This document shows positions 1 through 28,099 of a stretch of DNA of 37,126 nucleotides, piece by piece. The stretch's first letter is position 1. Every line of letters starts with the position of its first letter. The DNA is from a virus. The notes beneath the pieces were generated by a model, which saw nothing but the letters and a program-made list of their open reading frames with translations, did not search any database and was not told the DNA's origin. The stretch is from the IMG/VR virus record IMGVR_UViG_3300035698_004436, positions 1-37,126 of that record, one strand, 5' to 3'. A program made the position numbers and the translations under genes.

Positions 1-2
1 AA

Positions 3-464
3 TTGATAGTCGTAGCTGATGGATGCTCACTGACTGAATTTATAGTACATAAGCATTTCACAGATAAGCGGGTTCATTTGGCAAAGGTTGAACGTAAAGA
101 GCTTTGGAGTAATAAGGCTCGCAATGGGGGACTTGCTTGTGCAAAAGGTAAGTATATCATTTATATTGACTCAGACGACAAGTGGGGCGTGGATCATCTA
201 CGAATCATTAATGATCAGGTAGCTGAGAATGACTGGGTATATTACAATGACTGGAGGTGGAACGGTAAAGAGTTTATCGAACGTAAGATTGACATATCTT
301 TATATGGTCATTGCGGAACGTCTAATATCTGTCACTCCCGGAGGTTACAGCTAAGATGGGAGAAGCCCGGTTATGGTCATGACTACCTATTCATTCAGCA
401 ACTACGTAAGTTCGAGGGTAAGAAGATCACTACACCAGAATATTATGTTTGTCATGAAGTATAA
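3..464 (+). CDS. GT2-like glycosyltransferase, 5' truncated by window edge
   Basis: Probable family 2 (GT-A fold) glycosyltransferase that transfers a sugar from a nucleotide-sugar donor. The visible part starts in the second beta strand (IVVADGCS, where full-length GT2 proteins have a VVDDGS-type motif), so about 30 N-terminal residues lie upstream of the window. The TTG at position 3 is therefore not a real start. An IYIDSDD segment near visible residues 53-59 is the metal-binding DxD region. The C-terminal GHDYLFIQQL matches the acidic catalytic-base segment of this fold in position. The 153 visible residues plus the missing start would give about 185, short for GT2 but similar to other proteins in this cassette. 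It is followed by a possible micro-gene and then a second GT2-like gene on the same strand. Acceptor and donor are unknown. Confidence 0.75.
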   Translation: MIVVADGCSLTEFIVHKHFTDKRVHLAKVERKELWSNKARNGGLACAKGKYIIYIDSDDKWGVDHLRIINDQVAENDWVYYNDWRWNGKEFIERKIDISLYGHCGTSNICHSRRLQLRWEKPGYGHDYLFIQQLRKFEGKKITTPEYYVCHEV

Positions 465-470
465 ACTATT

Positions 471-560
471 ATGAAAAAAAGGGAAAAGAAAGTAAAAAAC
501 AGTATTACATCTCGTTTATGGAAATGGGTACTTAGTTTTAGTGAAAATCCAAATCCATGA
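471..560 (+). CDS. possible 29-residue basic micro-protein
   Basis: An open frame of 29 codons starting MKKREKKVKNSITSRLWKW fills the gap between two glycosyltransferase genes. It begins 6 bases after the preceding stop, and its TGA ends one base before the ATG at 562, which is the spacing style of this operon. The peptide is rich in Lys and Arg at the N-terminus, followed by two tryptophans. There is no recognisable domain. It could be a real small gene, or a leader that couples translation into the next gene. Only the packing argues for it. Confidence 0.35.
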   Translation: MKKREKKVKNSITSRLWKWVLSFSENPNP

Positions 561-561
561 A

Positions 562-1188
562 ATGAAAGCCTTTATAATCACATACAACCGCTTGAATTTG
601 CCTGTTAATATGGCTAAGTTCCTATCCGATCACGGTATTGATCCGGTGTTTGTCGATAATAACTCTGACTATCCACCATTATTGGATTACTACAAGACTA
701 CTCCTTATGAGGTTATCCGTATGCGTGAGAACTACGGTTATAAGGTAGTCTGGGAACAGAACCTTTTGGATAGATTAGGAATAGAAGGTAATTACATTGT
801 GACTGATCCTGATTTGGATATATCGGGTGTTCCTTATGACTTCTTAAGCGTTTTAGAGCAAGGATTGATTAAGTACCCACAATATGATAAATGTGGCTTT
901 AGCTTGGAGATATGCGATCTTCCAGAGACACCATTCAGTCCGGCAGGATATGAGACACAGTTCTGGCAGTACCCATTAGATGATATGTATTTTAAGGCAG
1001 CCGTAGATACTACATTTGCACTATACAAAGTGCCATTTCATTCGTTTAAAGCAATGAGAACTAATAGACCATATACATCCCGACACTTACCCTGGTATTA
1101 TTTTGATTTCAAAGATATGCCCCAGGACGAGCAATATTATTTTCAAACTTGTAAAGAATCACACTCAATGGGAGGGGTGTTCAGATGA
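562..1188 (+). CDS. GT2-like glycosyltransferase
   Basis: The 208-residue protein begins MKAFIITYNRLNLP, a typical GT-A beta-1 strand and loop, followed by FVDNNSDYPPLLDYY, the nucleotide-binding DNNS region. YIVTDPDLDI (about residues 80-89) carries the DxD-type metal site. It probably transfers a sugar in the cytoplasm, but donor and acceptor cannot be read from the sequence. An upstream in-frame GTG at 541 would add seven residues. I prefer the ATG at 562 because it puts the conserved strand at the N-terminus and follows the stop of the possible micro-gene by one base. The stop overlaps the next gene as ATGA at 1185-1188, which suggests translational coupling. Confidence 0.75.
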   Translation: MKAFIITYNRLNLPVNMAKFLSDHGIDPVFVDNNSDYPPLLDYYKTTPYEVIRMRENYGYKVVWEQNLLDRLGIEGNYIVTDPDLDISGVPYDFLSVLEQGLIKYPQYDKCGFSLEICDLPETPFSPAGYETQFWQYPLDDMYFKAAVDTTFALYKVPFHSFKAMRTNRPYTSRHLPWYYFDFKDMPQDEQYYFQTCKESHSMGGVFR

Positions 1189-1565
1189 AAGCAACTGAAT
1201 TAAGAATCGGAAATTTAGTTCAAGACACGCCATTCTCTATACCAAGAGAAGATATGTATTCTGATGGAATAACAAAAATTACAGGTCATGGAATTGACTT
1301 GCTTGAGAGAGGCTTAATGAAAGGATGGCGTCCTATCCCACTCACAGAAGAATGGCTATTGAAGTTTGGGTTTGAAAAGATAGTAATGAATAATATGATT
1401 GATATAATCCACTATCAAAATAAGGATTGTTGGATATATTTAATTAAAGACGTATTTGAATTAGAATTAATAGTAGAAGACGAAAGACTTAACCTTTACA
1501 GAAATTGGAAATATGTTCACCAACTCCAAAACTTATATTTTGCATTAACAGGGGAGGAATTATGA
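1185..1565 (+). CDS. conserved Bacteroidota phage protein of unknown function
   Basis: The 126-residue protein has the layout of a small family I recognise from Bacteroidota phages and prophages. It has an N-terminal ELRIGNLV box, a central RPIPLTEEWLLKFGFEK box and a C-terminal YVHQLQNLYFALTGEEL box. No function is known to me. It lies inside a run of glycan genes and overlaps both neighbours by four bases (ATGA at 1185 and 1562), so it is transcribed and probably translated with them. This family is typical of phages, so its presence suggests the glycan genes really belong to the phage and are not a host fragment at a prophage border. Confidence 0.75.
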   Translation: MKATELRIGNLVQDTPFSIPREDMYSDGITKITGHGIDLLERGLMKGWRPIPLTEEWLLKFGFEKIVMNNMIDIIHYQNKDCWIYLIKDVFELELIVEDERLNLYRNWKYVHQLQNLYFALTGEEL

Positions 1566-2314
1566 CAAAGCTATGTATCGTAATGACATATCACAACAGA
1601 CATGAGTCATTAGCATGGACTTTGGAATCTTTTAAGCACTCAAAGGTAAAGGATTTTAATGTAGTTATAGTTAATGACAATAGCGATAAGGATATTGAAC
1701 TACCTGACCTGCCGTATAAAGTAAGGGTAATCAATAGTAATGTAAAGAATGACATTTGGTCTGGTAAGTATGTTTGTGTATTCAATATGGCTTTTATGTA
1801 TGCCTTGCAAGACAATCCGGATATTATCATAATGCAACATTCCGAGTGTTACCACGCAGGGGACGTTTTAAGCTATGCTCAAAAGGTAACTGATGAATCA
1901 TATATATCATTCGGTTGTTATGCTTTAGGTAAAGAAGAAACACCAGACACGGTTGAAATAATAAACAGATCATGTACTCAAGACGGTCAACGGTCTTGGT
2001 ATAACCATCCACAAATAAGGCCAGTCGGATATAACTTCTGTTCCGCTATCACTGCAAAGAATCTGATTAAGTTAAATGGATTTGATGAACGGTTTAAAGA
2101 TGGTTGTGCTTATGAAGATAACTACTTCTTACATCAGATAAAGACATTAGGATTAAAGGTTGAGATAACAGCAGATCCTATTGTGTATCATCAATATCAT
2201 CCAGTACAGGGTAATCGATCACAGGACGCATGGAGAAGAAATTATGCTTTATATCACGACTTATCTTTAGGCAATGAGTATCGAGCAAAGCATTTATTAA
2301 CACCTGATTTATGA
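1562..2314 (+). CDS. GT2 family glycosyltransferase
   Basis: The 250-residue protein starts MTKLCIVMTYHNRHESL, the first strand of a GT-A Rossmann-like fold, followed by VVIVNDNSDKDI (the nucleotide-binding DNS region). Near the C-terminus LNGFDERFKDGCAYEDNYF contains the acidic ED pair that serves as catalytic base in many GT2 enzymes. MQHSECYHAGDV is in the position of the second-half DxD region but lacks a clear DxD. I chose the ATG at 1562 because a strong Shine-Dalgarno-like GGGGAGGAA precedes it and the ATG overlaps the preceding stop as ATGA. An in-frame start at 1505 lies inside the previous gene. It overlaps the following dehydratase gene by four bases. Confidence 0.82.
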   Translation: MTKLCIVMTYHNRHESLAWTLESFKHSKVKDFNVVIVNDNSDKDIELPDLPYKVRVINSNVKNDIWSGKYVCVFNMAFMYALQDNPDIIIMQHSECYHAGDVLSYAQKVTDESYISFGCYALGKEETPDTVEIINRSCTQDGQRSWYNHPQIRPVGYNFCSAITAKNLIKLNGFDERFKDGCAYEDNYFLHQIKTLGLKVEITADPIVYHQYHPVQGNRSQDAWRRNYALYHDLSLGNEYRAKHLLTPDL

Positions 2315-3591
2315 TAAAACAAAACAACATACAATCCCTAGTAGGTAATCACGTTGCACCATATTTATATAATGATGCTAATTTTAAACCAGGTAAGACA
2401 GTAATTCCCTACTCCGGTCCGTATTGGGATAACAGGGAGAGTGAAGCTGCTATTGATAGCCTATTAAATGGTAATTGGATTTCAGCAGGAGAGAATGTAC
2501 ATAAGTTTGAAAAGGAGTTTAGTAAGAAGTTTAATACAGGCCAGTCGTTAATGGTCAATTCCGGTTCATCTGCTAATCTGGTTATGATAGCTGCCTTAAA
2601 GAAGTACTACGGATGGCAAGATGGTGATGAAGTGATAGTATCACCTACAGCTTTCCCTACTACCATATCAGTATTATACCAGAACGGATTAACTCCGGTG
2701 TTTGCAGATATTGAATGGGACACGTTAAATTTTAATCTATACCGTGTATTAGATAAAATTACCCCCAGTACAAGGGCTATATTCTTATCTCCTGTATTAG
2801 GTAATTCACCAAATATTGATTATTTACTTTATCTTTGTGATAGAGGGATAAAGCTAATACTCGACAACTGTGATTCACTCGGTTCTAAATGGGGTGGTAA
2901 ATATCTGAATGAATATGCCATCGCTTCATCTTGCTCGTTTTATGCAGCTCATACGATATGCACCGGAGAGGGCGGTATGATTAGTACTAAGGATGAAGAC
3001 TTAATGAAGATTATGGTAAGTCTTGCGCATTGGGGACGGGACTGTACTTGTATTGGTCCAGCTAATATGTCAAAATCAGGCTCATGTGGTAAGCGGTTCA
3101 GTAAGTGGCTTGATGCCTATGATGGTATTGTAGATCATAAGTATGTCTTTAGCAATATGGGGTATAACTTAAAGCCTTTAGACCTTCAGGGTGCTATTGG
3201 ACTGGTTCAGTTATCAAAGTTTACCGAGATTGACGCACGAAGGAAGAAGTCAAAACATGTTATTGATGATATATTCATTAATCATATCGGTAATATTGAA
3301 GCCGTACAAGAACTTAACGAGGCTCAAACTACATGGTTCGGCACTCCGTTTATATGTGAGGAGATGGGATTAAAACATAGATTAGTTGAATATTTAGAGA
3401 AGCACTTAATCCAGACCCGCAATTACTTTTCAGGTAATATACTGATGCACCCCGGTTATATGTTTTTGGATGACTATAAGAAATACCCGGAAGCTAATAA
3501 GGTACTTGATAAGGTTTTCTTTGTTGGTGCTGCGCCACATTATCAGGATGAAGTATTTAATTATATCGAAGAAGTTGTTAAAAAGTTTTAA
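2311..3591 (+). CDS. rfbH: RfbH/E1-type [2Fe-2S] PLP-dependent sugar 3-dehydratase
   Basis: Member of the DegT/DnrJ/EryC1 fold, but of the dehydratase rather than the aminotransferase type. In known RfbH and AscC (E1) enzymes a CDP-4-keto-6-deoxyhexose loses its C3 hydroxyl through PMP and a [2Fe-2S] cluster, opening the route to 3,6-dideoxyhexoses. The diagnostic residues are visible. The PLP lysine is replaced by His214 in SFYAAHTICTGEGG, Asp185 precedes Cys187, and the four cluster cysteines are Cys187, Cys245, Cys247 and Cys259. The spacing is C-X57-C-X1-C-X11-C; E1 has X57, X1, X7, so the last loop carries four extra residues. WGRDC and FSNMGYNLK are also family signatures. At 426 residues it is full length. 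Its cytidylyltransferase, 4,6-dehydratase and E3-type reductase partners are not in the window and must come from upstream or from the host. Confidence 0.88.
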   Translation: MIKQNNIQSLVGNHVAPYLYNDANFKPGKTVIPYSGPYWDNRESEAAIDSLLNGNWISAGENVHKFEKEFSKKFNTGQSLMVNSGSSANLVMIAALKKYYGWQDGDEVIVSPTAFPTTISVLYQNGLTPVFADIEWDTLNFNLYRVLDKITPSTRAIFLSPVLGNSPNIDYLLYLCDRGIKLILDNCDSLGSKWGGKYLNEYAIASSCSFYAAHTICTGEGGMISTKDEDLMKIMVSLAHWGRDCTCIGPANMSKSGSCGKRFSKWLDAYDGIVDHKYVFSNMGYNLKPLDLQGAIGLVQLSKFTEIDARRKKSKHVIDDIFINHIGNIEAVQELNEAQTTWFGTPFICEEMGLKHRLVEYLEKHLIQTRNYFSGNILMHPGYMFLDDYKKYPEANKVLDKVFFVGAAPHYQDEVFNYIEEVVKKF

Positions 3592-3592
3592 A

Positions 3593-4330
3593 ATGAATTA
3601 CTTTATATCAGGATCATCCGGTTTTATAGGTACAGCAATAAAGAATCACTTATTGGCAATAGGCGAATCTGTTTACACTATTCCAAGAGATAAATCTATT
3701 AAGCAATTAAAGAGTCTATTTAATTATGCTAATCCTGATTATATCATTCACCTTGCATCATACGGTAATCATTACTATCAGACATACTTCAATGAGATGG
3801 TCCATATTAATATCACCGGAACCTTTAATTTATTGGAGGCATTAAAAGCATTTGATTATAAGAAGTTTTATAACTTTACAACTTCATCCGTACTGTTAAA
3901 GGACCAAACGTATTATTCAATTACTAAGCATTGCGGAGAACAGCTATCTAAGATGTATTCTAATGTAGTTAATATCAGACCTTATTCAGTGTATGGACCC
4001 GGAGAGGGCGATAATAGATTTATCCCGACCGTTATACGATGCCTTAATTCCGGTAAAGAAATGACACTGGACGAAAACGCGACTCATGCATGGATATACA
4101 TTGATGATTTAGTCAGGGCTATGTTTTTAGGTGAGACAGAAATGGGAGGTCCAATAGTTAATAATAAGGCAATAACATTTATATTAGAACAGGTATCAGG
4201 TAAAAAGCTTAAATATGCATGTGGTAAGGTACGTAGTTATGATAATAGTAATTGGGTAGAGCCAAAGTCGATTTGCTATACAAGTCTTTACGATGGATTA
4301 AAACGAACTTATGAATACTTTACACGATAG
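3593..4330 (+). CDS. NAD-dependent epimerase/reductase (short SDR)
   Basis: Extended-SDR-like nucleotide-sugar enzyme of 245 residues, shorter than the usual 310-340. The NAD(P)-binding glycine motif is GSSGFIG (residues 7-13) and the catalytic pair is Tyr108 and Lys112 in YSITK, with Ser98/Ser99 in the TTSS segment upstream. NIRPYSVYGPGE and WIYIDDLVRA are conserved in sugar epimerases and 4-ketoreductases. The start at 3593 is one base after the preceding stop; in-frame upstream codons lie inside the dehydratase gene. Following the RfbH-type dehydratase, it probably reduces or epimerises the 4-keto-3,6-dideoxy sugar or a branched derivative of it. That substrate is inferred from context only. 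It overlaps the next gene by 20 bases. Confidence 0.8.
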   Translation: MNYFISGSSGFIGTAIKNHLLAIGESVYTIPRDKSIKQLKSLFNYANPDYIIHLASYGNHYYQTYFNEMVHINITGTFNLLEALKAFDYKKFYNFTTSSVLLKDQTYYSITKHCGEQLSKMYSNVVNIRPYSVYGPGEGDNRFIPTVIRCLNSGKEMTLDENATHAWIYIDDLVRAMFLGETEMGGPIVNNKAITFILEQVSGKKLKYACGKVRSYDNSNWVEPKSICYTSLYDGLKRTYEYFTR

Positions 4331-4889
4331 GATAATAGAGATTTCTAAGAAGAACAAGATGGCTCATTTAGGGTCAAATCTAACATCTGTTAATATTATT
4401 GATGAGATATACTCGATTAAGAAACCAGACGAACCATTTGTATTAAGTTCCGGACATGCTGGATTGGCACTATATGTTGTATTAGAGAAGTATTACAATT
4501 TTGATGCAGAATACCTTTATTGTAAACACGGAACACACCCTCACCGGGATTTAGATGATAAGATTTATTGTTCAACTGGATCGCTCGGCATGGGATTGGG
4601 CATTGCTTTAGGAATGGCTATGGCAGACAGAACAAAGAACGTATATTGCCTTATCTCGGACGGTGAGTGTTATGAAGGATTAATATATGAGACTGCAAAT
4701 GTGATGCGTAGGTATAAAGTAACCAACTTAAAGATATATCTTAATTATAACGGTATGTCTGCTTATGCTCATATTGAGTCATGGATGCTATCTAATATTA
4801 AACGATTAATACCATTCCTTACAGTCAGAAAGACTGATGTAATAAATTACGGATTAAAAGGACTTTCAGCACATTATATAGTATTATGA
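4311..4889 (+). CDS. transketolase-like N-terminal (TPP-binding) subunit, short
   Basis: The 192-residue protein matches the N-terminal, pyrophosphate-binding half of split transketolases. It contains FVLSSGHAGLALYVVLE, the STGSLGMGLGIALGMAMA block (about residues 88-105) and the thiamine diphosphate and Mg site SDGECYEG with Asp117, completed by Asn145 or Asn147 about 28 residues later. Split N-subunits are normally about 270 residues; here the part after the TPP asparagine is very short. Enzymes of this class move a two-carbon ketol unit. Together with the next gene it probably forms one enzyme. Located next to an RfbH-type dehydratase, it may add a two-carbon branch to a 4-keto sugar. That reaction is my inference, not something the sequence proves. 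Confidence 0.82.
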   Translation: MNTLHDRIIEISKKNKMAHLGSNLTSVNIIDEIYSIKKPDEPFVLSSGHAGLALYVVLEKYYNFDAEYLYCKHGTHPHRDLDDKIYCSTGSLGMGLGIALGMAMADRTKNVYCLISDGECYEGLIYETANVMRRYKVTNLKIYLNYNGMSAYAHIESWMLSNIKRLIPFLTVRKTDVINYGLKGLSAHYIVL

Positions 4890-5347
4890 GACGACAATTT
4901 GCAAAGGACTTATATGAATTAATGGCAAAGGATAAAAACATTATCTTTATCGCTGTGGATTTAGGGTTTGGGATGGCAGACAGGATAAGGGACGACTTTC
5001 CAAATCAGTTTATCAATCCAGGTGCAGCGGAGCAGGCAGCTATTACTATTGCAGTCGGATTGGCTTTGTCTGGCAAGATACCGATAGTCTACTCTATCAC
5101 TCCATTCCTTATTTACAGACCATTTGAGGCCATAAGGAACTATCTCGATAATGAGAGTATCCCTGTTATACTTGTAGGCGGTGGTAGGGGTCAGGATTAC
5201 GTACACGATGGATTTAGTCATGATGCCTCAGACCATGAAATATTAAAACAGTTTAAAAACATTAATTTTTTAGTCCCGGAAAATAGTTTTAACTTAAAGG
5301 AGATTGTTTATTCAAATAAACCGACATATTTAAACCTAAGAAGATGA
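4886..5347 (+). CDS. transketolase-like C-terminal subunit reduced to the Pyr domain
   Basis: The 153-residue protein corresponds to the pyrimidine-binding domain of transketolase. The glutamate that activates the thiamine cofactor is Glu49 in GAAEQAAITIAVGLALSG, followed by IVYSITPFLIYRPFEAIRN and the histidine-rich YVHDGFSHDASDHE loop. Usual split C-subunits are about 300 residues because a third, regulatory or structural, domain follows; that domain is absent here. The stop overlaps the next gene, so this looks like a settled short form and not a decayed one. ATG at 4886 overlaps the N-subunit stop as ATGA, as expected for two subunits made in equal amounts. The active site would lie at the interface of the two products. 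Confidence 0.82.
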   Translation: MRRQFAKDLYELMAKDKNIIFIAVDLGFGMADRIRDDFPNQFINPGAAEQAAITIAVGLALSGKIPIVYSITPFLIYRPFEAIRNYLDNESIPVILVGGGRGQDYVHDGFSHDASDHEILKQFKNINFLVPENSFNLKEIVYSNKPTYLNLRR

Positions 5348-6111
5348 CATATAAAGAATGTACAGATAACCCAATGGATAATCAGCCAGCGTGGGGATTG
5401 CTCGAAAATGATTACAATAGATATTATCTGAATTACGATAATGACAGAACGCCTAAAATTCCACACAACATACATCTTATATGGCTTGGCAGTCCGTTCC
5501 CTGAAAAATACAAAAGAATAAAAGAAACGTGGGAGAAATATCATCCTACCTGGAATGTCAGGGTATGGGATGATTACGATGCAGAAACTTTTGGCATGGT
5601 TAATAAGGAAGCCTTTGATGCTGTGGCTAATTTTGGTGTTAAGTCTGATATATTCCGTTACGAGATTCTTCACAGGCATGGTGGGATATATGTCGATACA
5701 GATATTGAGTGTTTAAAGCCATTTGATGATTTAACGTATTTGGACTTCTTTGCAGGGACGGGATGGAACGCACACCCTGTTGTATTCAATGGAATATTAG
5801 CTAGTGCACCCGGTAATGAGTTTATGGATAATGTGATTCAGGAATTATACGATAAGCCCGTACCCTCCACAGAAAAGAACTGCCCGGTGCTTGATTATGC
5901 CGGATGCGACTTCCTTACAGGTGTTTATATCAAGTATGCTCAAGGAACTACCGACAAAACAGTTATATTTCCTAATCACTTTTTCTATCCTGTGCCTGCT
6001 GTTATACGGATGGACATAAGGGAAGATAACGAGGCAAGCAGAAAGATAATTGATTCATACAAGAAAAGTAATTCATATTGTGTACATTTGTGGTACTGTA
6101 GCTGGCAATAA
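5344..6111 (+). CDS. GT32-like glycosyltransferase (DxD sugar-binding)
   Basis: The 255-residue protein has the layout of the Gly_transf_sug/OCH1-type GT32 family. IPHNIHLIWLG (residues 39-49) is the first strand, WNVRVWDDYD the nucleotide-side loop, KSDIFRYEILHRHGG the conserved helix, and Asp118-Thr-Asp120 in GGIYVDTDIEC the DxD motif for metal and nucleotide sugar. These enzymes often transfer alpha-linked hexoses or HexNAc in capsule or O-antigen assembly. The ATG at 5344 overlaps the preceding stop as ATGA. A 20-30 residue extension before the IPHNIHLIW motif is longer than in minimal members but harmless. Donor and acceptor unknown. Confidence 0.85.
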   Translation: MTYKECTDNPMDNQPAWGLLENDYNRYYLNYDNDRTPKIPHNIHLIWLGSPFPEKYKRIKETWEKYHPTWNVRVWDDYDAETFGMVNKEAFDAVANFGVKSDIFRYEILHRHGGIYVDTDIECLKPFDDLTYLDFFAGTGWNAHPVVFNGILASAPGNEFMDNVIQELYDKPVPSTEKNCPVLDYAGCDFLTGVYIKYAQGTTDKTVIFPNHFFYPVPAVIRMDIREDNEASRKIIDSYKKSNSYCVHLWYCSWQ

Positions 6112-6112
6112 C

Positions 6113-6928
6113 ATGGAAAGATTTATAACAGGAGAGAAATTCAGGACATTAGCGGATTATACATTTTCGCCTAATATTAAGCGTGGAGATGATTATTACC
6201 GCTTACAGGATACCTTTAATCCGGATAGCATCAAAGATGGTGATATAATCTATTCACAAACCGGATATGCTCAAGAGCTTTTAAACGAGGTGGCTAAGCT
6301 TAACAAGCACGTTATTCTGGTAACACATAATGGAGATACAAATATTAATCTCAGGCCGCCCGGCAATGTTATTAAGTGGTTTACTACTAATGTAAATATC
6401 ATTCATCCCAGAGTAGAGTCAATCCCGATTGGATTAGAAAATAGTATGTGGTTCCCTGGTGTTCACAAAAAAGAAAAGATAATAGCCAGACTAAATGAAC
6501 CTAAAAGACATTACAATTTGATGTACATGAGTCATAGTGTTGCTACTAATCCAGAGACTAGAGGTATGTTGTATGATATGTTTGAAGGCAAGTCATGGGT
6601 TACATCAGAGAGGGGATCTAATAGGCCGAATCTATTTGCCCAGTACTTAAATAATGTTGATCGACATAAATTCGTGATAAGTCCTGAAGGTAATGGGATG
6701 GATGTACATCGGACCTGGGAGTGCCTTCATCTAAGAACCATACCTATTGAGAAGCGGAATATTAATAATCAATTCTATACCGATCTCCCTATATGTTTTG
6801 TTTACGAATGGGAAGAGATCACCGAAGACTTTTTGAATAGTGAATATGATAGAATCACAAAACAGGACTGGAATATGGATAAGATAACTTTTGCATATTG
6901 GGAAAACAAAATATTAAATACTAAATGA
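6113..6928 (+). CDS. exostosin/GT47-like glycosyltransferase
   Basis: The 271-residue protein carries the C-terminal nucleotide-sugar-binding signature of exostosin-like GT-B enzymes: FVISPEGNGMDVHRTWECLH (residues 187-206) followed by TIPI and an aromatic-acidic YEWEEITEDFL. The N-terminal half (IIYSQTGYAQELLNEV, VILVTHNGDTNI) looks like the acceptor-side Rossmann domain. I base the family on these motifs; the donor is not predictable. The ATG at 6113 comes one base after the preceding stop TAA (6109-6111), and further upstream starts lie within the GT32-like gene. The last four bases overlap the FAD oxidoreductase gene. Confidence 0.65.
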   Translation: MERFITGEKFRTLADYTFSPNIKRGDDYYRLQDTFNPDSIKDGDIIYSQTGYAQELLNEVAKLNKHVILVTHNGDTNINLRPPGNVIKWFTTNVNIIHPRVESIPIGLENSMWFPGVHKKEKIIARLNEPKRHYNLMYMSHSVATNPETRGMLYDMFEGKSWVTSERGSNRPNLFAQYLNNVDRHKFVISPEGNGMDVHRTWECLHLRTIPIEKRNINNQFYTDLPICFVYEWEEITEDFLNSEYDRITKQDWNMDKITFAYWENKILNTK

Positions 6929-7986
6929 AAATCATTGTCATCGGAGCTGGTATATTTGGCATAACGATAGCATTAGAGCTATCTAAGAAGCACAATATTA
7001 CCCTTGTAGACAGGAATAGTAATATTATGCAAAACGCATCAATGGCAAACCATAGCAGGTTACATTTTGGATTTCATTACCCCCGCAGTAAGGCAACGGC
7101 CTTGCAATGTCTGGACGGGTATAATATGTTTCATGATTATTTTAATGATGCGATAACTTCTGATTTTGAGAACTATTACATGATTGAGAAAAACAGCAAT
7201 GTCAATAGTAAGGTTTACGAGTGTTTTTGTAATGATATGGGTCTGGAATATAAAGAACAATATCCTATAATAGATATGAATTTTGATAATATCGAATCTT
7301 CTTATCTGACTAATGAGCCTATATTTGACTATTACCGAATATATCAGAGGTTATCCAGAGACATAAGAATGTCGGGTATTAAGATGATCATGAATAAAAG
7401 AATTACAAGTAAAAAGGATTTGGAGGGTTATGATGTTGTTATTAATGCTTCATATTTTAATATCAATAAGATAGATAAAATTTTAGGATTACCTCAAGAT
7501 AAATTAAAACTACAGACGGTTATTATTCCGATATTCAAATACTTTAGAAAAAAGATAGGATTAACTATAATGGATGGTGATTTTTGTAGTATTATGCCAA
7601 AGGGATTTAATACTGATACGTTCTTATTATACCACGTTAAAGAGTCTGTTATTTATCAGACAGAGAGCAATACAATACCTCAGTTGTGGTACTATGGGAA
7701 GGAGATTATAAAGAATCGTTTTTTAAAAGATAATATCTATGATAGGATTGCAGCCAAATCGGTATATAAAATAGTAAAGGCATCGATGGAGTATTTCCGG
7801 TTCCTTAAAGATTGTGAGTTTGTGGATTACTGGCAGACAGTCAGAGCCTTGCCTATCAATGATGATGATGAGAGGCTAAGTGTATTTAAAACAGCAGAAC
7901 AGGGGGACCAGAAAATCATATCAGTGTTATCGGGGAAAATATCAACATGTATGTTAACTGCAAACAAGATAAGTAAAATATTATGA
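6925..7986 (+). CDS. FAD-dependent oxidoreductase, DAO-like
   Basis: The 353-residue protein starts MKIIVIGAGIFGITIALELS, a Rossmann FAD-binding GxGxxG (Gly7, Gly9, Gly12), with Asp29 ending strand 2 (ITLVDR) for the ribose hydroxyls. NHSRLHFGFHYPRS (about residues 43-56) resembles the flavin-contacting segment of D-amino-acid-oxidase-like proteins found in polysaccharide clusters. The substrate is unknown. In context it could oxidise a sugar intermediate or act on a glycan substituent. It is coupled to both neighbours by four-base overlaps. The C-terminal VLSGKISTCMLTANKIS is the usual place of the second FAD contact. Confidence 0.75.
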   Translation: MKIIVIGAGIFGITIALELSKKHNITLVDRNSNIMQNASMANHSRLHFGFHYPRSKATALQCLDGYNMFHDYFNDAITSDFENYYMIEKNSNVNSKVYECFCNDMGLEYKEQYPIIDMNFDNIESSYLTNEPIFDYYRIYQRLSRDIRMSGIKMIMNKRITSKKDLEGYDVVINASYFNINKIDKILGLPQDKLKLQTVIIPIFKYFRKKIGLTIMDGDFCSIMPKGFNTDTFLLYHVKESVIYQTESNTIPQLWYYGKEIIKNRFLKDNIYDRIAAKSVYKIVKASMEYFRFLKDCEFVDYWQTVRALPINDDDERLSVFKTAEQGDQKIISVLSGKISTCMLTANKISKIL

Positions 7987-8717
7987 ACAGTATCTTATTT
8001 GGTAATGGCTATTGGGCTAACATCGTTAAAGAGAAAATCGGTAGATTGACAAACCTAGTAGCGGTGGTGGATTCAAAATCAGATATTGATATTCCTGATG
8101 TGGATATAGCTTTTGTCTGCTCATCAACAGCGAGTCATTATGATATAATCAAAAGGTGTTTAGATAAGAATATTAAATACTTATTCTGCACAAAGCCATT
8201 TACTGGTGATTATGAGAAAGCAAAAGAGTTGTTCAATATAGCAAAACGAAAAGATATTAGTATCTTTGTAGATAATTTGTTCTTATTTAGAAAAGAGATA
8301 ACAAACATACAAGTAAAGAGTATGGATCGGATCTCTTTCTACTGGAATAAGCCAGAGATAAGAGAAAGCTTCTTTGACAGCCTACTTTATCATGATTTAT
8401 ATTTATTACTAGAGTGGGGCAGGTCAGATAAATGGAAGGTTACGGGTGGTCATGTATTTGATAATGGGTTGTTTTTGTCTATGAGTAATTCTTATCAAAA
8501 ATGCTGTTTTGAATATCACATACAAAAGACCAATGCCCAGCAAAGTGATAAATGGATTATAATTGACAACTACACATTAGACTTATCTTGCCCTAAGAAT
8601 GACCCATTAGAGGAATGTATTGTTAATATGCTTCAGGGCAATACAGACTATGATTTAAGTAAAAAGATTACATTAGATACATTGAAATTAATGAATAATA
8701 TAAAAAAGCAATTATGA
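7983..8717 (+). CDS. Gfo/Idh/MocA-like sugar oxidoreductase, short
   Basis: The 244-residue protein has an N-terminal NAD(P)-binding fold (LFGNGYW with Gly7 and Gly9), the strand AFVCSSTASHY, and CTKPF (residues 69-73) where the family has the EKP catalytic lysine motif; Lys71 would be that lysine. LLYHDLYLLLEW holds His137 and Asp138, matching the family's conserved HD pair in the substrate domain. Typical members are 330-350 residues, so the C-terminal sheet domain is reduced. Such enzymes oxidise or reduce sugars or cyclitols. Its neighbours on both sides overlap it by four bases. The exact substrate is not predictable. Confidence 0.75.
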   Translation: MNSILFGNGYWANIVKEKIGRLTNLVAVVDSKSDIDIPDVDIAFVCSSTASHYDIIKRCLDKNIKYLFCTKPFTGDYEKAKELFNIAKRKDISIFVDNLFLFRKEITNIQVKSMDRISFYWNKPEIRESFFDSLLYHDLYLLLEWGRSDKWKVTGGHVFDNGLFLSMSNSYQKCCFEYHIQKTNAQQSDKWIIIDNYTLDLSCPKNDPLEECIVNMLQGNTDYDLSKKITLDTLKLMNNIKKQL

Positions 8718-9247
8718 AAATCAATCCATATTACACACATCAAAAGTATTTAACAAAAGAGTTAAGTAAATTAGATTACAGAAAACCAGTAAGGGTATTA
8801 GAGTTTGGTATAGGTGATGGTAGCTCCTCTATCTTCTCTGATTTCACACAACGCTATTCTAATTTAGAGGCACACTCCTATGAAAGTGATTTGTCGTGGC
8901 ATCATAATATGTCTAAGAAATACGCTACCAAAAACTATAACTTTCATCATGTCGATTCGTGGGATGAATTAGTAAAAGACAATAAGTCATTAACTCATAT
9001 GTATGATTTGGTTTTTGTCGATACAGACCCATTTCAGTCGAGAATAGATATAATTAATCTTGTAAGGAATAATGCTAAAGTAATTATATTACATGACTTT
9101 GGTTTTTATAATAAGGGGGTGATTACTGACCTATGGAGTGTAGGTAATGGTAGTTTTTTCAAAAAGCTACTCGGAAGGGATTTTATTATGGAGCCTAATC
9201 ATGAAATAGACCCCGGTACATTAGTATTAAGAAATAAAAGACTATGA
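8714..9247 (+). CDS. class I SAM-dependent methyltransferase-like protein
   Basis: The 177-residue protein has VRVLEFGIGDGSSSIF, matching the glycine-rich SAM-binding motif I (Glu30, Gly32, Gly34, Gly36), an acidic residue after strand 2 (SYESDL), and DLVFVDTDP (residues 98-106) at motif IV, followed by VIILHDF. This is the pattern of the Methyltransf_24-type sugar O-methyltransferases. It would most plausibly methylate a sugar hydroxyl in the glycan. The protein is somewhat short, with no clear metal triad beyond Asp103 and the HDF aspartate. The methyl acceptor is inferred from context. It overlaps both neighbours by four bases. Confidence 0.65.
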   Translation: MKINPYYTHQKYLTKELSKLDYRKPVRVLEFGIGDGSSSIFSDFTQRYSNLEAHSYESDLSWHHNMSKKYATKNYNFHHVDSWDELVKDNKSLTHMYDLVFVDTDPFQSRIDIINLVRNNAKVIILHDFGFYNKGVITDLWSVGNGSFFKKLLGRDFIMEPNHEIDPGTLVLRNKRL

Positions 9248-9996
9248 TTTCAGCAATGTTAGATGGTGGAATAGGGGCTAGGATGTTTCAGATAGCGACA
9301 ACCTATGCTTTAGCACTCGATAATAACGATGTATGTGCCTTTGACCTGAATATGGGTTCTATCAGTCAGGATCATCTAGCTTCAGAGTACAGAGACAATA
9401 TACTAAGGAACGTAAAAGACTTGCCTGCTAATTGGGTAGCTGAGTCTTATTACCCAGAGCGGAGACATGACTTTGATCCTATCCCTTACAAAAAGAATAT
9501 GATGTTAAAGGGATTCTTTACTAGTGAGAAGTATTTTCAACATCGAAGGAAGGAGATAATAGAGTTATTTAAGTCTATGGAGTATTTTGATTCAAAGTAC
9601 TGGAAAAATAGCGTATCACTTCATGTTCGCAGGGGTGATTATCTTGTTAATGCAAGCCATGTATGTAGTGAGGAATATTATAGGAAAGCCTTAATACATA
9701 TTGATACGATAACACAAATAGATTTTATTTATGTAGTCTCAGATGATATTCCGTGGTGTAAAGAAATATTTAAAGATAAACGTATCTTTTTTATTGAAGG
9801 AGTGCCGGACTATATTGATTTTTATGCACAAACTATTTGTAGTCATAACATTATATCAAACTCGACATTTTCACGTATGGCGACATTTTTAAATGAAAAT
9901 GAAGGTAAGATAGTAATTGCTCCGGCTGTATGGTTTGGTGGCAGTATGGCTCATGAGGCTTTAGATGTATTTGATAATAATTTTATATTTATATAA
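9244..9996 (+). CDS. GT11-like alpha-1,2-fucosyltransferase family protein
   Basis: The 250-residue protein carries the hallmarks of GT11. MLDGGIGARMFQIATTYALA is the N-terminal counterpart of GGLGNQLFQ, GFFTSEKYF (residues 90-98) matches the G-F/Y-x-Q/T-SEKYF block, HVRRGDY (residues 127-133) is the donor-binding motif, and ICSHNIISNSTFS is the conserved C-terminal NSTFS block. Known members move L-fucose from GDP-fucose to a galactose 2-hydroxyl, but relatives may use other 6-deoxy sugars. The normally invariant Asn-Gln of GGLGNQLFQ is replaced by Ala-Arg, which may signal a different donor. The stop overlaps the next start as TAATG. Confidence 0.85.
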   Translation: MISAMLDGGIGARMFQIATTYALALDNNDVCAFDLNMGSISQDHLASEYRDNILRNVKDLPANWVAESYYPERRHDFDPIPYKKNMMLKGFFTSEKYFQHRRKEIIELFKSMEYFDSKYWKNSVSLHVRRGDYLVNASHVCSEEYYRKALIHIDTITQIDFIYVVSDDIPWCKEIFKDKRIFFIEGVPDYIDFYAQTICSHNIISNSTFSRMATFLNENEGKIVIAPAVWFGGSMAHEALDVFDNNFIFI

Positions 9997-10658
9997 TGAA
10001 TGGAATAATTTACGACATGGATGGAGTCATTGCATTGACTGAAGATATGCACAAAAAGGCTTTTAATAAAACAATGGAGACTTATGGGGTACAGTATGAA
10101 GATATGGATTGGGGCAAGTTCATAGGGAGAGGCAATAAGGCAATTCTTACTGAAGTGTTTGCAGATTATTATATTAGTGAGAATGTACACGAATGGGTAT
10201 TAAAATGGGTTGCTAATTATCAACAATTAGTAAAAACGGAAGGTGTTACCGTAGTACCCGGCTTCTTAAAGTTTGACAGGGGTCTTTTATATAAGAAAAT
10301 AATAGCAACTGGGGGACTCAGGAAAAACTCTGAAATAATACTCAATTTACTTAATCTGAATTATGGTATTATATCATCTGAAGACCTTATAAACCCAAAG
10401 CCTGACCCTGAGATATTTATTAAAGCTTCTAAGTCAATAAATGTACCGTATAACGAATGTACGGTATTTGAAGATTCAATACATGGTATTAGGGCTGCAA
10501 AATCGGCAGGGATGAGAGTAGTGGCACTAACTACGACATTCACAAGAGAAGAAATAGAAGCTGAATCACCGGATCTTATCATAGATAATTTTATTAACTT
10601 TAATTATTCGTTTTTTAATAAACGTAATATAATTTACCCTCAATTTGAAGAGAGATGA
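9996..10658 (+). CDS. HAD-superfamily phosphatase/phosphomutase-like protein
   Basis: The 220-residue protein resembles beta-phosphoglucomutase-type HAD enzymes. The nucleophile and acid-base pair are Asp7 and Asp9 in YDMDGV, the motif III lysine is Lys135 in NPKPDPEIF, and the metal-binding acids are Glu159-Asp160 in VFEDSIHGIRAAKSAGM. IIATGG (about residues 102-107) stands at motif II with Thr105. A helical cap lies between residues 15 and 80. Reaction: hydrolysis or internal transfer of a phosphate on a small molecule, here probably a sugar phosphate made for the glycan route. It sits between two fucosyltransferase-like genes, overlapping one base upstream and four bases downstream. Confidence 0.8.
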   Translation: MNGIIYDMDGVIALTEDMHKKAFNKTMETYGVQYEDMDWGKFIGRGNKAILTEVFADYYISENVHEWVLKWVANYQQLVKTEGVTVVPGFLKFDRGLLYKKIIATGGLRKNSEIILNLLNLNYGIISSEDLINPKPDPEIFIKASKSINVPYNECTVFEDSIHGIRAAKSAGMRVVALTTTFTREEIEAESPDLIIDNFINFNYSFFNKRNIIYPQFEER

Positions 10659-11479
10659 AAGTTAAGTTTTATTACCCGTATGGAATCGATATAGATATTG
10701 ACACCAATAAGAGTGCCGAAGTTTATATTGATTGTGTTAATTACGATCCAGTGCCTAAAGACTCAATCAGGATAGTTATTATTGAGGAGCCATTAAAAAG
10801 CCCTTATTATGACTTAATGAGAGCCAGGCGGGACTTATACACACACTTACTGACATTCCATAGTGAGATACTGGAAGAGAACCCAAAGGCTCGTAGATTC
10901 CACTGTACTAATACATGGGTAAAAGGTCACATACCAGGGGAGAAGCTTTTTAATATTTCATATATCGTAGGGGGTAAGAAAAACCCGACAATGGAAGGAT
11001 ATGAATTACGGCATGAGGTATGGAGAAATAGGGATAAGATAATGACTCCGAAACTGTTTTATGTAAGTGGTAATTCCGTCCATTCTCATACATTCGTTCC
11101 CTGGGATGAAGCTCATATCAATCCGCTTGTTTTAGGTGCGTTAAAAGAGCCGTTATTTGATTCAATGTTTCATATAGCTATTGAGAATACATCAATCGAA
11201 AACTACTTTACTGAAAAGGTAATCGACTGCTTCCAAACTCGAACAGTACCTATTTATTACGGGTGTAAGAACATCGGAGAGTTTTTTAATCCTGATGGTA
11301 TTCTTATGGCTAATAATCTGAATGATCTGATAAATATTAGTAATCAAGTATATCCAGACTTATATGATAATATGCTTCCGGCAATGGAAGACAACTATAA
11401 TAGGTCAATGGCATGGGTTGACCATGATGATCAGATAAAAACAGCAGTAACGAAAATAATTAAAGAGGAAGAATTATGA
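10655..11479 (+). CDS. GT10-like alpha-1,3-fucosyltransferase family protein
   Basis: The 274-residue protein shows the GT10 C-terminal signature. FHIAIENTS (residues 172-180) and YFTEK (184-188) lead into TVPIYYG (197-203), then IGEFFNPDGILMANN, matching the fucosyltransferase fENs / YvTEKi / vPVyyG / F.P..fI pattern. GT10 enzymes use GDP-fucose to add alpha-1,3 or 1,4 fucose. Here the N-terminal half is divergent, so another donor is possible. With the GT11-like gene it makes two transferases of fucose-using families in one phage. It is the last obvious glycan gene. Its stop overlaps a 54-residue gene (ATGA, 11476-11479) that leads straight into the head module. Confidence 0.85.
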   Translation: MKVKFYYPYGIDIDIDTNKSAEVYIDCVNYDPVPKDSIRIVIIEEPLKSPYYDLMRARRDLYTHLLTFHSEILEENPKARRFHCTNTWVKGHIPGEKLFNISYIVGGKKNPTMEGYELRHEVWRNRDKIMTPKLFYVSGNSVHSHTFVPWDEAHINPLVLGALKEPLFDSMFHIAIENTSIENYFTEKVIDCFQTRTVPIYYGCKNIGEFFNPDGILMANNLNDLINISNQVYPDLYDNMLPAMEDNYNRSMAWVDHDDQIKTAVTKIIKEEEL

Positions 11480-12950: not shown

Positions 12951-13211
12951 TTATTTATTTTCTTCAATAGGTGGATTATCAAAAGCCTTTGCTTCGACAA
13001 TTCTTAACTCTACCTTTCTGACATTACCAGATAGTGACTGTTCGAGTTCTGCTCTCTTTATCTCGAGTGCATAAGTTCTATTCATACCATCAAGGGCGTG
13101 GGATGCCTGCTCTGCTTTTTCGATTGTTACTTCGTCACCCATTATTTTCTCGTAAAGATCAGAATATGAATGATAAATTGATTTCTGATTAACTGGCTTC
13201 ATTACTTTCAT
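12951..13211 (-). CDS. small coiled-coil-like hypothetical protein
   Basis: The 86-residue protein begins MKVMKPVNQ; a second in-frame ATG at 13204-13202 would remove three residues, and both overlap the preceding gene. The middle is strongly charged and probably helical (ASHALDGMNRTYALEIKRAE). Small proteins of this look occur in Bacteroidota phages, but I know of no function. It is second in a two-gene minus-strand unit and overlaps the upstream repeat-protein gene by 23 bases. It is followed by a good terminator. The pair looks like an independently expressed insertion in the head module. Confidence 0.65.
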   Translation of the reverse strand: MKVMKPVNQKSIYHSYSDLYEKIMGDEVTIEKAEQASHALDGMNRTYALEIKRAELEQSLSGNVRKVELRIVEAKAFDNPPIEENK

Positions 13212-13965
13212 CTTTTTTGGTTTTTAGTAAACGTTTAATTCTTATTTGTTCTCTATATGATTCTATTAAGTCTGTAGGAGGAATTTTAATATTAAATCTT
13301 ACTTTTAACTGTGACTTAATATATGAATCCACTAATTTCTCTACACGCTCCTTATTTCTTTTGTTATAATAATCTTTATGTAATTCATAATATTCTTTTG
13401 CCCGCTTACCGATTTCCTCTTTATACAATCTATAATATTCTTTTAGATATTCTCTAAGACGATATTTATTAAATTTTTGATATTCTTTCTGATATTCTGC
13501 AATAATATCTTTATGTAATTTACGATATTCTTTTTGCCATTCTGTAATATGATCTCTATGTAATTCATGATATTTTTTGCCATTCTCCTTATGGCGCTCT
13601 TTATTCGATTCGTAATATTCTTTACGTTTTTCTTTATGATATTCTTTATTTAATTCATAATATTTTTTACTATTTTCTTTAAGACGATCTCTGTTTAATT
13701 CACGATATTCCTTATGATATTTTTTGCTATGTTCTTTGTGTGATTCACGCCATTTTTTATTATGTTCTTTATAATAATCTTTATTATTTTGATAGCGTTC
13801 TTTTCTTTCCTCTATAAGATGGCCTTTATTTAATTTTTGATATTCTTTCTGATATTCCTTAAAGCATTTTTTGCATGTATGTAAATACCCATACAAAGAT
13901 CTTTTGTTTTTCCAAAACTCCTCAATCTCTTTCTCTTCTCCGCACTTTTTACAAATTCGTTTCAT
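13189..13965 (-). CDS. zinc-knuckle protein with eleven 15-residue repeats
   Basis: The 258-residue protein has three parts. Residues 1-39 form a Cys4 zinc knuckle (Cys5-x2-Cys8 and Cys31-x2-Cys34) like that at the N-terminus of endonuclease VII / HNH-type phage proteins. Residues 40-204 are eleven consecutive 15-residue repeats of the type KEYYELNKEYHKEKR, with Lys-Glu-Tyr at positions 1-3 and Asn or His-Lys at positions 7-8. Residues 205-258 form a small conserved-looking tail (VDSYIKSQLKVRFNIKIPP, then LIESYREQIRIKR) that I have seen with the same knuckle in other phage proteins. No nuclease active site is visible. The repeats are probably long charged helices that could bind nucleic acid. 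Function unknown. Minus strand, transcribed against all its neighbours. Confidence 0.82.
   Translation of the reverse strand: MKRICKKCGEEKEIEEFWKNKRSLYGYLHTCKKCFKEYQKEYQKLNKGHLIEERKERYQNNKDYYKEHNKKWRESHKEHSKKYHKEYRELNRDRLKENSKKYYELNKEYHKEKRKEYYESNKERHKENGKKYHELHRDHITEWQKEYRKLHKDIIAEYQKEYQKFNKYRLREYLKEYYRLYKEEIGKRAKEYYELHKDYYNKRNKERVEKLVDSYIKSQLKVRFNIKIPPTDLIESYREQIRIKRLLKTKKDESNEAS
13345..13848 (-). repeat. 45-bp tandem coding repeats (15-residue units)
   Basis: DNA encoding eleven 15-residue units of the zinc-knuckle protein. Units differ at many third positions and at several residues, but all keep the 45-base period, so this is an old protein-level repeat and not a fresh tandem duplication. 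TTCTTTATGTAATTCATAAT-type segments recur on the plus strand at that period. Limits are approximate. Confidence 0.7.
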
Positions 13966-27523: not shown

Positions 27524-28099
27524 ATGAAAATAAGCGGTATATATAAAATTCAATCAGTAATAAAATCCGAACGCATTTATATAGGTTCTGCTGTTAATAT
27601 TCAAAAACGATGGAATGCTCATCTCTGGCACTTACGGAATAATAAACATCATACATCAAAACTCCAAAGGCACTTTAATAAATATGGCGAATCCGATTTA
27701 ATGTTTTCGATTCTGACAATTTGTTTAATAAAGGAATTAATAAATACTGAACAATTTTATTTAGATTCGCATAAGACATATTTTAATACTTGCAAAGTAG
27801 CAGGAAGTACTTTAGGGATAAAGGCATCTTCAGAAACTATTGCAAAATTAAGGATTACTGCAAAGGGAAATAAGGGAAGAAAAGGTATTTCACTAACAAA
27901 AGAGCACAAAAGGAAAATATCAACATCTATGATGGGAGAAAAGAATCCGATGTACGGGAAGCCATCTCCCATGAAAGGTAAAAAAGGGCATCCATCTCCA
28001 ACTAAAGGGATGAAAGGTATTTATTCTGAAGAGACACTCGCAAAAATGAGAATCTCAAGTCAAAAAGCATGGGTTAATAGAAGATTAAAAATTGCATGA
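27524..28099 (+). CDS. GIY-YIG endonuclease with NUMOD3 motifs (homing-type)
   Basis: The 191-residue protein begins with a GIY-YIG nuclease domain (residues 1-90): GIY at 5-7, YIG at 19-21, catalytic Arg29 in QKRWNAH, and Glu76 in NTEQFYLD. The C-terminal half carries NUMOD3-type DNA-binding repeats (GEKNPMYGKPSPMKGKKG), typical of free-standing or intron-encoded homing endonucleases. It cuts DNA at a specific site and spreads between related phages. Its insertion between two tail appendage genes is typical of such elements. Lower operon fit (21-base AT-rich gap upstream) also suggests insertion. No intron boundary is evident. Confidence 0.88.
   Translation: MKISGIYKIQSVIKSERIYIGSAVNIQKRWNAHLWHLRNNKHHTSKLQRHFNKYGESDLMFSILTICLIKELINTEQFYLDSHKTYFNTCKVAGSTLGIKASSETIAKLRITAKGNKGRKGISLTKEHKRKISTSMMGEKNPMYGKPSPMKGKKGHPSPTKGMKGIYSEETLAKMRISSQKAWVNRRLKIA

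Follow-up and report, generated by a model that had tools for sequence, protein, structure and literature searches.

A split mini-transketolase beside an E1-type sugar dehydratase in phage glycan cassettes: a candidate pathway to branched dideoxy sugars

The Four-Gene Locus

The virus record IMGVR_UViG_3300035698_004436 (IMG/VR), all 37,126 bases of which form the window analyzed here, carries on its plus strand four adjacent genes. These are predicted to encode an E1/RfbH-type pyridoxal phosphate (PLP)/[2Fe-2S] sugar 3-dehydratase of 426 amino acids (2311..3591; RfbH or the 2311 protein below), a short protein of the short-chain dehydrogenase/reductase class (SDR, an NAD(P)-dependent epimerase/reductase; 3593..4330, 245 amino acids; Pfam Epimerase, 1.3e-26), and the two halves of a mini split transketolase recognized by Pfam and structure models, namely TKN, the thiamine pyrophosphate (TPP)-pyrophosphate domain half (4311..4889, 192 amino acids), and TKC, the pyrimidine-domain half (4886..5347, 153 amino acids). 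Judging from sequence and gene context, it is on balance probable that the four genes constitute one sugar-nucleotide pathway to a branched dideoxy sugar, in which deoxygenation at C3 would be followed by ketol transfer and reduction.

The genes are tightly packed: a single base separates RfbH from the SDR, the SDR and TKN overlap by 20 base pairs, and ATGA overlaps join TKN to TKC, TKC to the next gene, and the upstream glycosyltransferase gene to RfbH. The ATG at 3593 was taken as the start of the SDR; a longer open reading frame from 3470 would overlap RfbH. An earlier reading of the window (the original prediction) had described four adjacent, coupled genes, namely those for an RfbH/E1-type dehydratase, a short epimerase/reductase and a reduced transketolase in two halves, and this description is borne out by the overlaps and abutment, the profile matches, the kept residues and the folds.

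The E1-Type Dehydratase and the SDR

A histidine in place of the aminotransferase lysine marks dehydratases of this fold family off from aminotransferases. The 2311 protein matches Pfam DegT (8e-65), NCBIfam RfbH (3e-95) and Yersinia E1 (PDB 3bcx, 2e-63); its His214 aligns with His220 of E1, and Cys187, Cys245, Cys247, and Cys259 align with the four E1 cysteines, all five residues being invariant across 12 phage relatives. In E1 and SpnQ, but not in ColD, a [2Fe-2S] cluster is held by four cysteines (PMC8987622). By these residues, the 2311 protein is a predicted E1-type PLP/[2Fe-2S] sugar 3-dehydratase. Besides an RfbH that is 62% identical to that of the window, a 642-kb uncultured phage (LR756502.1, 435-456 kb, locus L012) has another DegT protein and, in two copies, relatives of the window gene at 6113-6928, but no Transket_pyr match was found on its record.

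The window SDR has both the GxxGxxG and the YxxxK motif, which are kept in 87-104 of 105 SDRs adjacent to a transketolase. Three SDR groups occur beside transketolase pairs, namely a short upstream group (the window type), a short RmlD-like downstream group, and a group of ~316 amino acids, for which the top-scoring model is dTDP-glucose 4,6-dehydratase. The window SDR is proposed to act as the reductase of the branched sugar.

The Split Mini-Transketolase

The two halves match the Pfam families Transketolase_N, DXP_synthase_N, and Transket_pyr, and on these matches an assignment to the YerE family of the decarboxylase superfamily was rejected. Among solved protein chains, the two of a single split transketolase (6yak, 6yaj) are nearest to them in sequence. 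AlphaFold models with a mean predicted local distance difference test score of 92.9 (TKN) and 90.8 (TKC) superpose on these chains: the TKN model on 6yak with a Z of 20.4 and a root-mean-square deviation of 2.2 over 192 aligned residues, giving the fold of the TPP-pyrophosphate domain, and the TKC model on 6yaj with a Z of 20.3 and a deviation of 1.9 over 147, giving that of the pyrimidine domain. All 192 TKN residues cover residues 6-265 of E. coli transketolase, with ~68 residues fewer in TKN. TKC aligns with residues 357-520, and its model stops at the equivalent of residue 520, hence the C-terminal transketolase domain is absent; no Transketolase_C match was found in TKC or the next genes. 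The PHROG families matched by the window halves have lengths of 192 and 153.

Numbered as in E. coli TktA, through Salmonella TktA of equal length, the positions aligned with H26, H66, H100, D155, E160, N185, E411, and H473 are invariant among 59 TKN and 63 TKC relatives. In the window, they correspond to the Mg/TPP motif and active-site histidines of TKN (D117, E122, N147, H19, H49, and H76), and to E49, which aligns with the catalytic glutamate E411, and H112 of TKC. The positions of S385 and H461 are both glycine in the window TKC, the former mapped by position only, and at the H461 position (G100 in the window) the glycine, followed by an arginine, is invariant in the 63 TKC sequences. S385 of transketolase contacts the substrate phosphate (PMC5073344). 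Because these two positions are replaced, a changed substrate site is suggested, which does not in itself identify the substrate.

The reduced size of the pair leaves room for the view that the halves are no longer a transketolase and have kept the fold for another TPP-dependent carboligase or decarboxylase activity, e.g., with pyruvate or hydroxypyruvate as donor. Both the C-terminal domain and ~68 N-domain residues of the E. coli enzyme are lacking, the TKC structure is equally near to DXS and to transketolase, and distant mini-TKC relatives occur in Campylobacter phages outside sugar cassettes. However, the histidines aligned with TktA H26, H66, H100, and H473 are invariant, and a change to such an activity seems very unlikely to us.

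Co-occurrence in Phages and Bacteria

A scan of viral contigs with the TKC alignment returned 371 stretches encoding TKC relatives, of which the best 80 were kept, and the analyzed set comprises 90 loci with both halves, falling into 52 clusters at 80% identity; the records are mostly fragments, and the matches are sampled from the nearest relatives. An SDR directly adjoins the transketolase pair in 82 of the 90 loci. Counted by cluster, 47 of 52 have an SDR beside the pair, compared with a mean of 10.2 and a maximum of 19 in 2000 shuffles. A His-type 3-dehydratase is present on the locus in 24 clusters, and in 15 of the 52 it lies in the same contiguous block as the pair (shuffled mean 3.8, maximum 10). 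Since the loci are non-independent and were picked by similarity to the window family, these figures show clustering and not prevalence; the four-gene module is a non-chance neighborhood.

All 52 DegT-type proteins classified on transketolase loci have the catalytic histidine, and 34 have the four cysteines, while four Lys-type aminotransferases lie farther off on the same records. The transketolase is thus associated with enzymes that make 4-keto-3-deoxy sugars.

The order of the genes varies from locus to locus. L119, the closest relative of the window, shares its order RfbH-SDR-TKN-TKC, but an additional gene (9173-9701, ~530 base pairs, not a transketolase) separates TKN from TKC. The order is TKN-TKC-SDR-RfbH-4,6-dehydratase in L113, L133, L144, and L163, RfbH-4,6-dehydratase-TKN-TKC-SDR in L147, L168, and L189, and RfbH-TKN-TKC-SDR in L181. 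Many phage blocks include the 4,6-dehydratase, i.e., the enzyme for the preceding step (three of these proteins were checked by model scan and the rest were assigned by profile). Nucleotidyltransferases of PF00483 and PF01467, sought as the missing first step, were rare and not systematic. That membership stays constant while the order is reshuffled argues for a shared function.

In bacteria, a Formivibrio metagenome-assembled genome (L057) has the order rfbF-rfbG-rfbH-TKN-TKC-SDR, with the glucose-1-phosphate cytidylyltransferase, the CDP-glucose 4,6-dehydratase and RfbH all scoring well over the curated cut-offs. RfbH stands with a full-size split transketolase at four bacterial loci, namely L057; L245 and L280, where the transketolase comes after RfbH; and L047, where the two lie near each other on opposite strands. 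Co-occurrence beyond the window, which the original prediction had named beforehand as its test, was hence found, in varied orders, in many phages and in bacteria next to rfbF/rfbG/rfbH.

These data bear on an alternative in which the product of RfbH and the SDR is a common 3,6-dideoxyhexose without a branch, such as those of the paratose or abequose type, while the adjacent transketolase pair has no part in it and serves the infected cell in pentose phosphate or nucleotide metabolism. Dideoxyhexoses of this type are the usual end products of E1 (PMC8987622), and there are phages with glycan cassettes in which RfbH stands without a transketolase. Yet the frequency with which SDR and pair are joined, the presence of RfbH in the block above every shuffle, the location of the pair within sugar cassettes, and the replaced S385 and H461 positions all speak against it, so that we regard this alternative as unlikely. 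A role of the pair in nucleotide metabolism is in itself disfavored by gene context.

With the window TKN as the only query, no relative was recovered from viral contigs, and named phages gave only weak matches; relatives were recovered with the TKC query and the TKC alignment. Annotated phage records contain no close mini-transketolase (identity at most ~37%), and several of them look like bacterial contigs filed as phage: AGRM01000002.1, although placed among the phages, is a contig of a Salmonella chromosome, and several records of Listeria and Acinetobacter phages resemble it, so that phage transketolase matches are inflated. A distant TKC-like protein of 149-153 amino acids is encoded by the Campylobacter phages CP21 (HE815464 74423-74872, L204) and CP220 (FN667788 160309-160770, L205), where its gene adjoins a GroES-like gene and there is no sugar cassette; the CP21 gene annotated as transketolase is a distant relative in a different setting.

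The Asp469 Position and the Weight of the Evidence

At the TKC position that corresponds to E. coli Asp469, 23 of the 24 phage clusters with a dehydratase carry Leu, Ala, or Cys, and 27 of the 28 without one retain Asp (Fisher p 1.6e-12, with clusters as units). Several bacterial split transketolases likewise have no Asp there. Engineered changes of D469 raised the activity with propionaldehyde relative to glycolaldehyde (PMC3657141), i.e., with acceptors that have no alpha-hydroxyl. A 3-deoxy-4-keto sugar would be an acceptor without an alpha-hydroxyl on one side, which is in line with this lead. Among the clusters that have no DegT-type protein, L167 (71 kb record) alone carries Leu at the position; in its sister L151, RfbH is part of the block, which suggests recent loss of the dehydratase or supply by the host for L167.

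The same position is relevant to a further alternative, according to which the pair and the SDR branch a 4-keto-6-deoxy sugar that retains its 3-hydroxyl, the window RfbH serving another sugar. It would account for the roughly half of clusters that combine SDR and transketolase with no dehydratase, nearly all of which have Asp at 469, as does the window. However, the nearest relatives of the window, L119 and L121, have RfbH in the block and Ala at 469, and the window RfbH immediately adjoins the SDR, which makes the alternative improbable in our view.

Several results weigh against a branched dideoxy sugar as the product of the four genes. The window TKC keeps Asp (D108) at the 469 position, as the sole exception among the dehydratase-bearing clusters, and on the tree there are two changes and three independent pairs at this position (sign test p 0.5-1), and with two changes only, the correlation is a lead and is not decisive. 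No dehydratase is found on the locus in 28 of the 52 transketolase clusters. Conversely, the records of 15 phage RfbH relatives, many of them fragmentary, gave no Transket_pyr match, and most sampled bacterial RfbH loci have no transketolase nearby, so that the pairing is a minority arrangement. Against the RfbH equivalog model NF011936, the 2311 protein has a score of 319.5 bits, below the cut-off of 423 bits, and is hence classed as E1-type but divergent and not as an RfbH equivalog; a related phage protein, that of L133, reaches 465 bits. Finally, no nucleotidyltransferase or 4,6-dehydratase (rfbF/rfbG-like) gene, of the kind that the original prediction had suggested seeking upstream, is found in this record, but the left end of the record falls within the cassette, so that their absence there says little, and such genes are present in the bacterial locus L057.

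The Surrounding Cassette and the Phage Record

Positions 1-11,479 of the window are a dense cluster of glycosyltransferase and sugar-enzyme genes, interrupted on the left side by the contig end. On the plus strand, it includes a family 2 glycosyltransferase gene (1562..2314; Pfam Glycos_transf_2) that overlaps the start of RfbH, a Gly_transf_sug glycosyltransferase gene (5344..6111; PF04488, 3.9e-14) that overlaps the stop of TKC, and genes for a family 11 glycosyltransferase (9244..9996; PF01531, 1.7e-19) and a family 10, fucosyltransferase-like glycosyltransferase (10655..11479; PF00852, 4.1e-07). Between 6925 and 9247, the cassette encodes a flavin adenine dinucleotide-dependent oxidoreductase (DAO), a GFO/IDH/MocA oxidoreductase and a 177-amino-acid protein without assignment.

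The right part of the record holds phage head, tail and recombination genes (major head protein, head morphogenesis, and tape measure among them), which identifies the record as a phage. Among phages of named hosts, those of Porphyromonas and Riemerella have the nearest major head proteins (~28-30% identity). Two genes resemble homing endonucleases, an HNH-like one on the minus strand (13189-13965) and a GIY-YIG one (27524-28099); the former is the sole long minus-strand gene of a plus-strand genome and has AT-rich surroundings.

A Proposed Route to a Branched Sugar

E1 deoxygenation followed by a two-carbon branch from a thiamine enzyme, the core of the original prediction, stands as the best reading of the comparative evidence, i.e., of the co-occurrence. 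What is observed are the genes, their kept catalytic residues, the predicted folds and the repeated co-occurrence, from which we infer each chemical step given here, as well as the donor, the nucleotide, the identity of the sugar and its destination. RfbH would remove the C3 hydroxyl from a nucleoside diphosphate (NDP)-4-keto-6-deoxyhexose to give an NDP-4-keto-3,6-dideoxyhexose; its substrate is probably CDP-linked and would come from the host or from genes past the contig end. TKN and TKC would together bind TPP and detach a ketol unit of two carbons from a ketose phosphate of the host; joining of this unit to the C4 ketone would yield a C4-branched octose, the side-chain ketone of which the SDR may reduce. 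The glycosyltransferases of the cassette could then place the branched sugar on a glycan of the host surface or of the virion. As possible roles, the original prediction had named a change of the host surface glycan, a block to superinfection, and decoration of the virion.

For the wider family, it is plausible, if somewhat doubtful, that the unusually small split transketolase of hundreds of environmental phage contigs uses a sugar ketone, and not an aldehyde, as the acceptor of a two-carbon unit, and that with the E1-type dehydratase, the 4,6-dehydratase and the reductase it makes up a route to a C4-branched dideoxy-octose that is encoded for the most part by the virus, the same module standing beside bacterial rfbFGH in polysaccharide clusters. 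If so, phages would themselves be makers of rare sugars, with implications for receptor change and for the decoration of virions.

Comparison With Known Systems

The module is not described in the open-access literature searched. Phage-borne 3-dehydratases as such are already annotated in cyanophages: the glycan cassettes of the Synechococcus phages S-H68, S-B05, and S-CAM7 likewise combine an RfbH- or ColD-like dehydratase with glycosyltransferases, but the S-H68 and S-B05 records have no Transket_pyr match and no annotated transketolase lies near the S-CAM7 dehydratase. The split transketolase of Carboxydothermus hydrogenoformans (6yak, 6yaj) shares the two-chain split, with 27-30% identity in the structure alignment; its chains have 309 and 341 amino acids, as compared to 192 and 153 in the window, and the phage pair is missing the C-domain.

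The use of ketones as acceptors by transketolases is so far a proposal, and a 2025 review on tertiary alcohol-forming TPP enzymes describes the cases put forward as untested in vitro (PMC12247030). These include the split-gene transketolases of miharamycin and amipurimycin biosynthesis in Streptomyces, with 13 putative sequences, all from Streptomycetes and untested in vitro, for which addition of a hydroxyacetyl unit to a keto sugar has been proposed as it is here (PMC12247030). In contrast to those antibiotic clusters, the window has phage genes, a smaller enzyme and an E1-type dehydratase. The phage family thus supplies numerous small candidates in two parts, for which the partner dehydratase is defined, and the keeping or loss of Asp469 provides a natural comparison within it.

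A close parallel in terms of chemistry is the synthesis of yersiniose A in Yersinia pseudotuberculosis (E1/RfbH, YerE, and ketoreduction), in which an E1-made 4-keto-3,6-dideoxyhexose receives a two-carbon branch in a TPP-dependent step and the side chain is reduced. The comparison with YerE made in the original prediction is fair as a functional parallel, but does not extend to the enzyme itself, as YerE uses pyruvate and belongs to the decarboxylase superfamily and not to the transketolases (PMC12247030), in contrast to the two-part mini-transketolase that the window carries in a phage. If the proposed pathway is correct, a transketolase route to branched sugars would exist alongside the YerE route.

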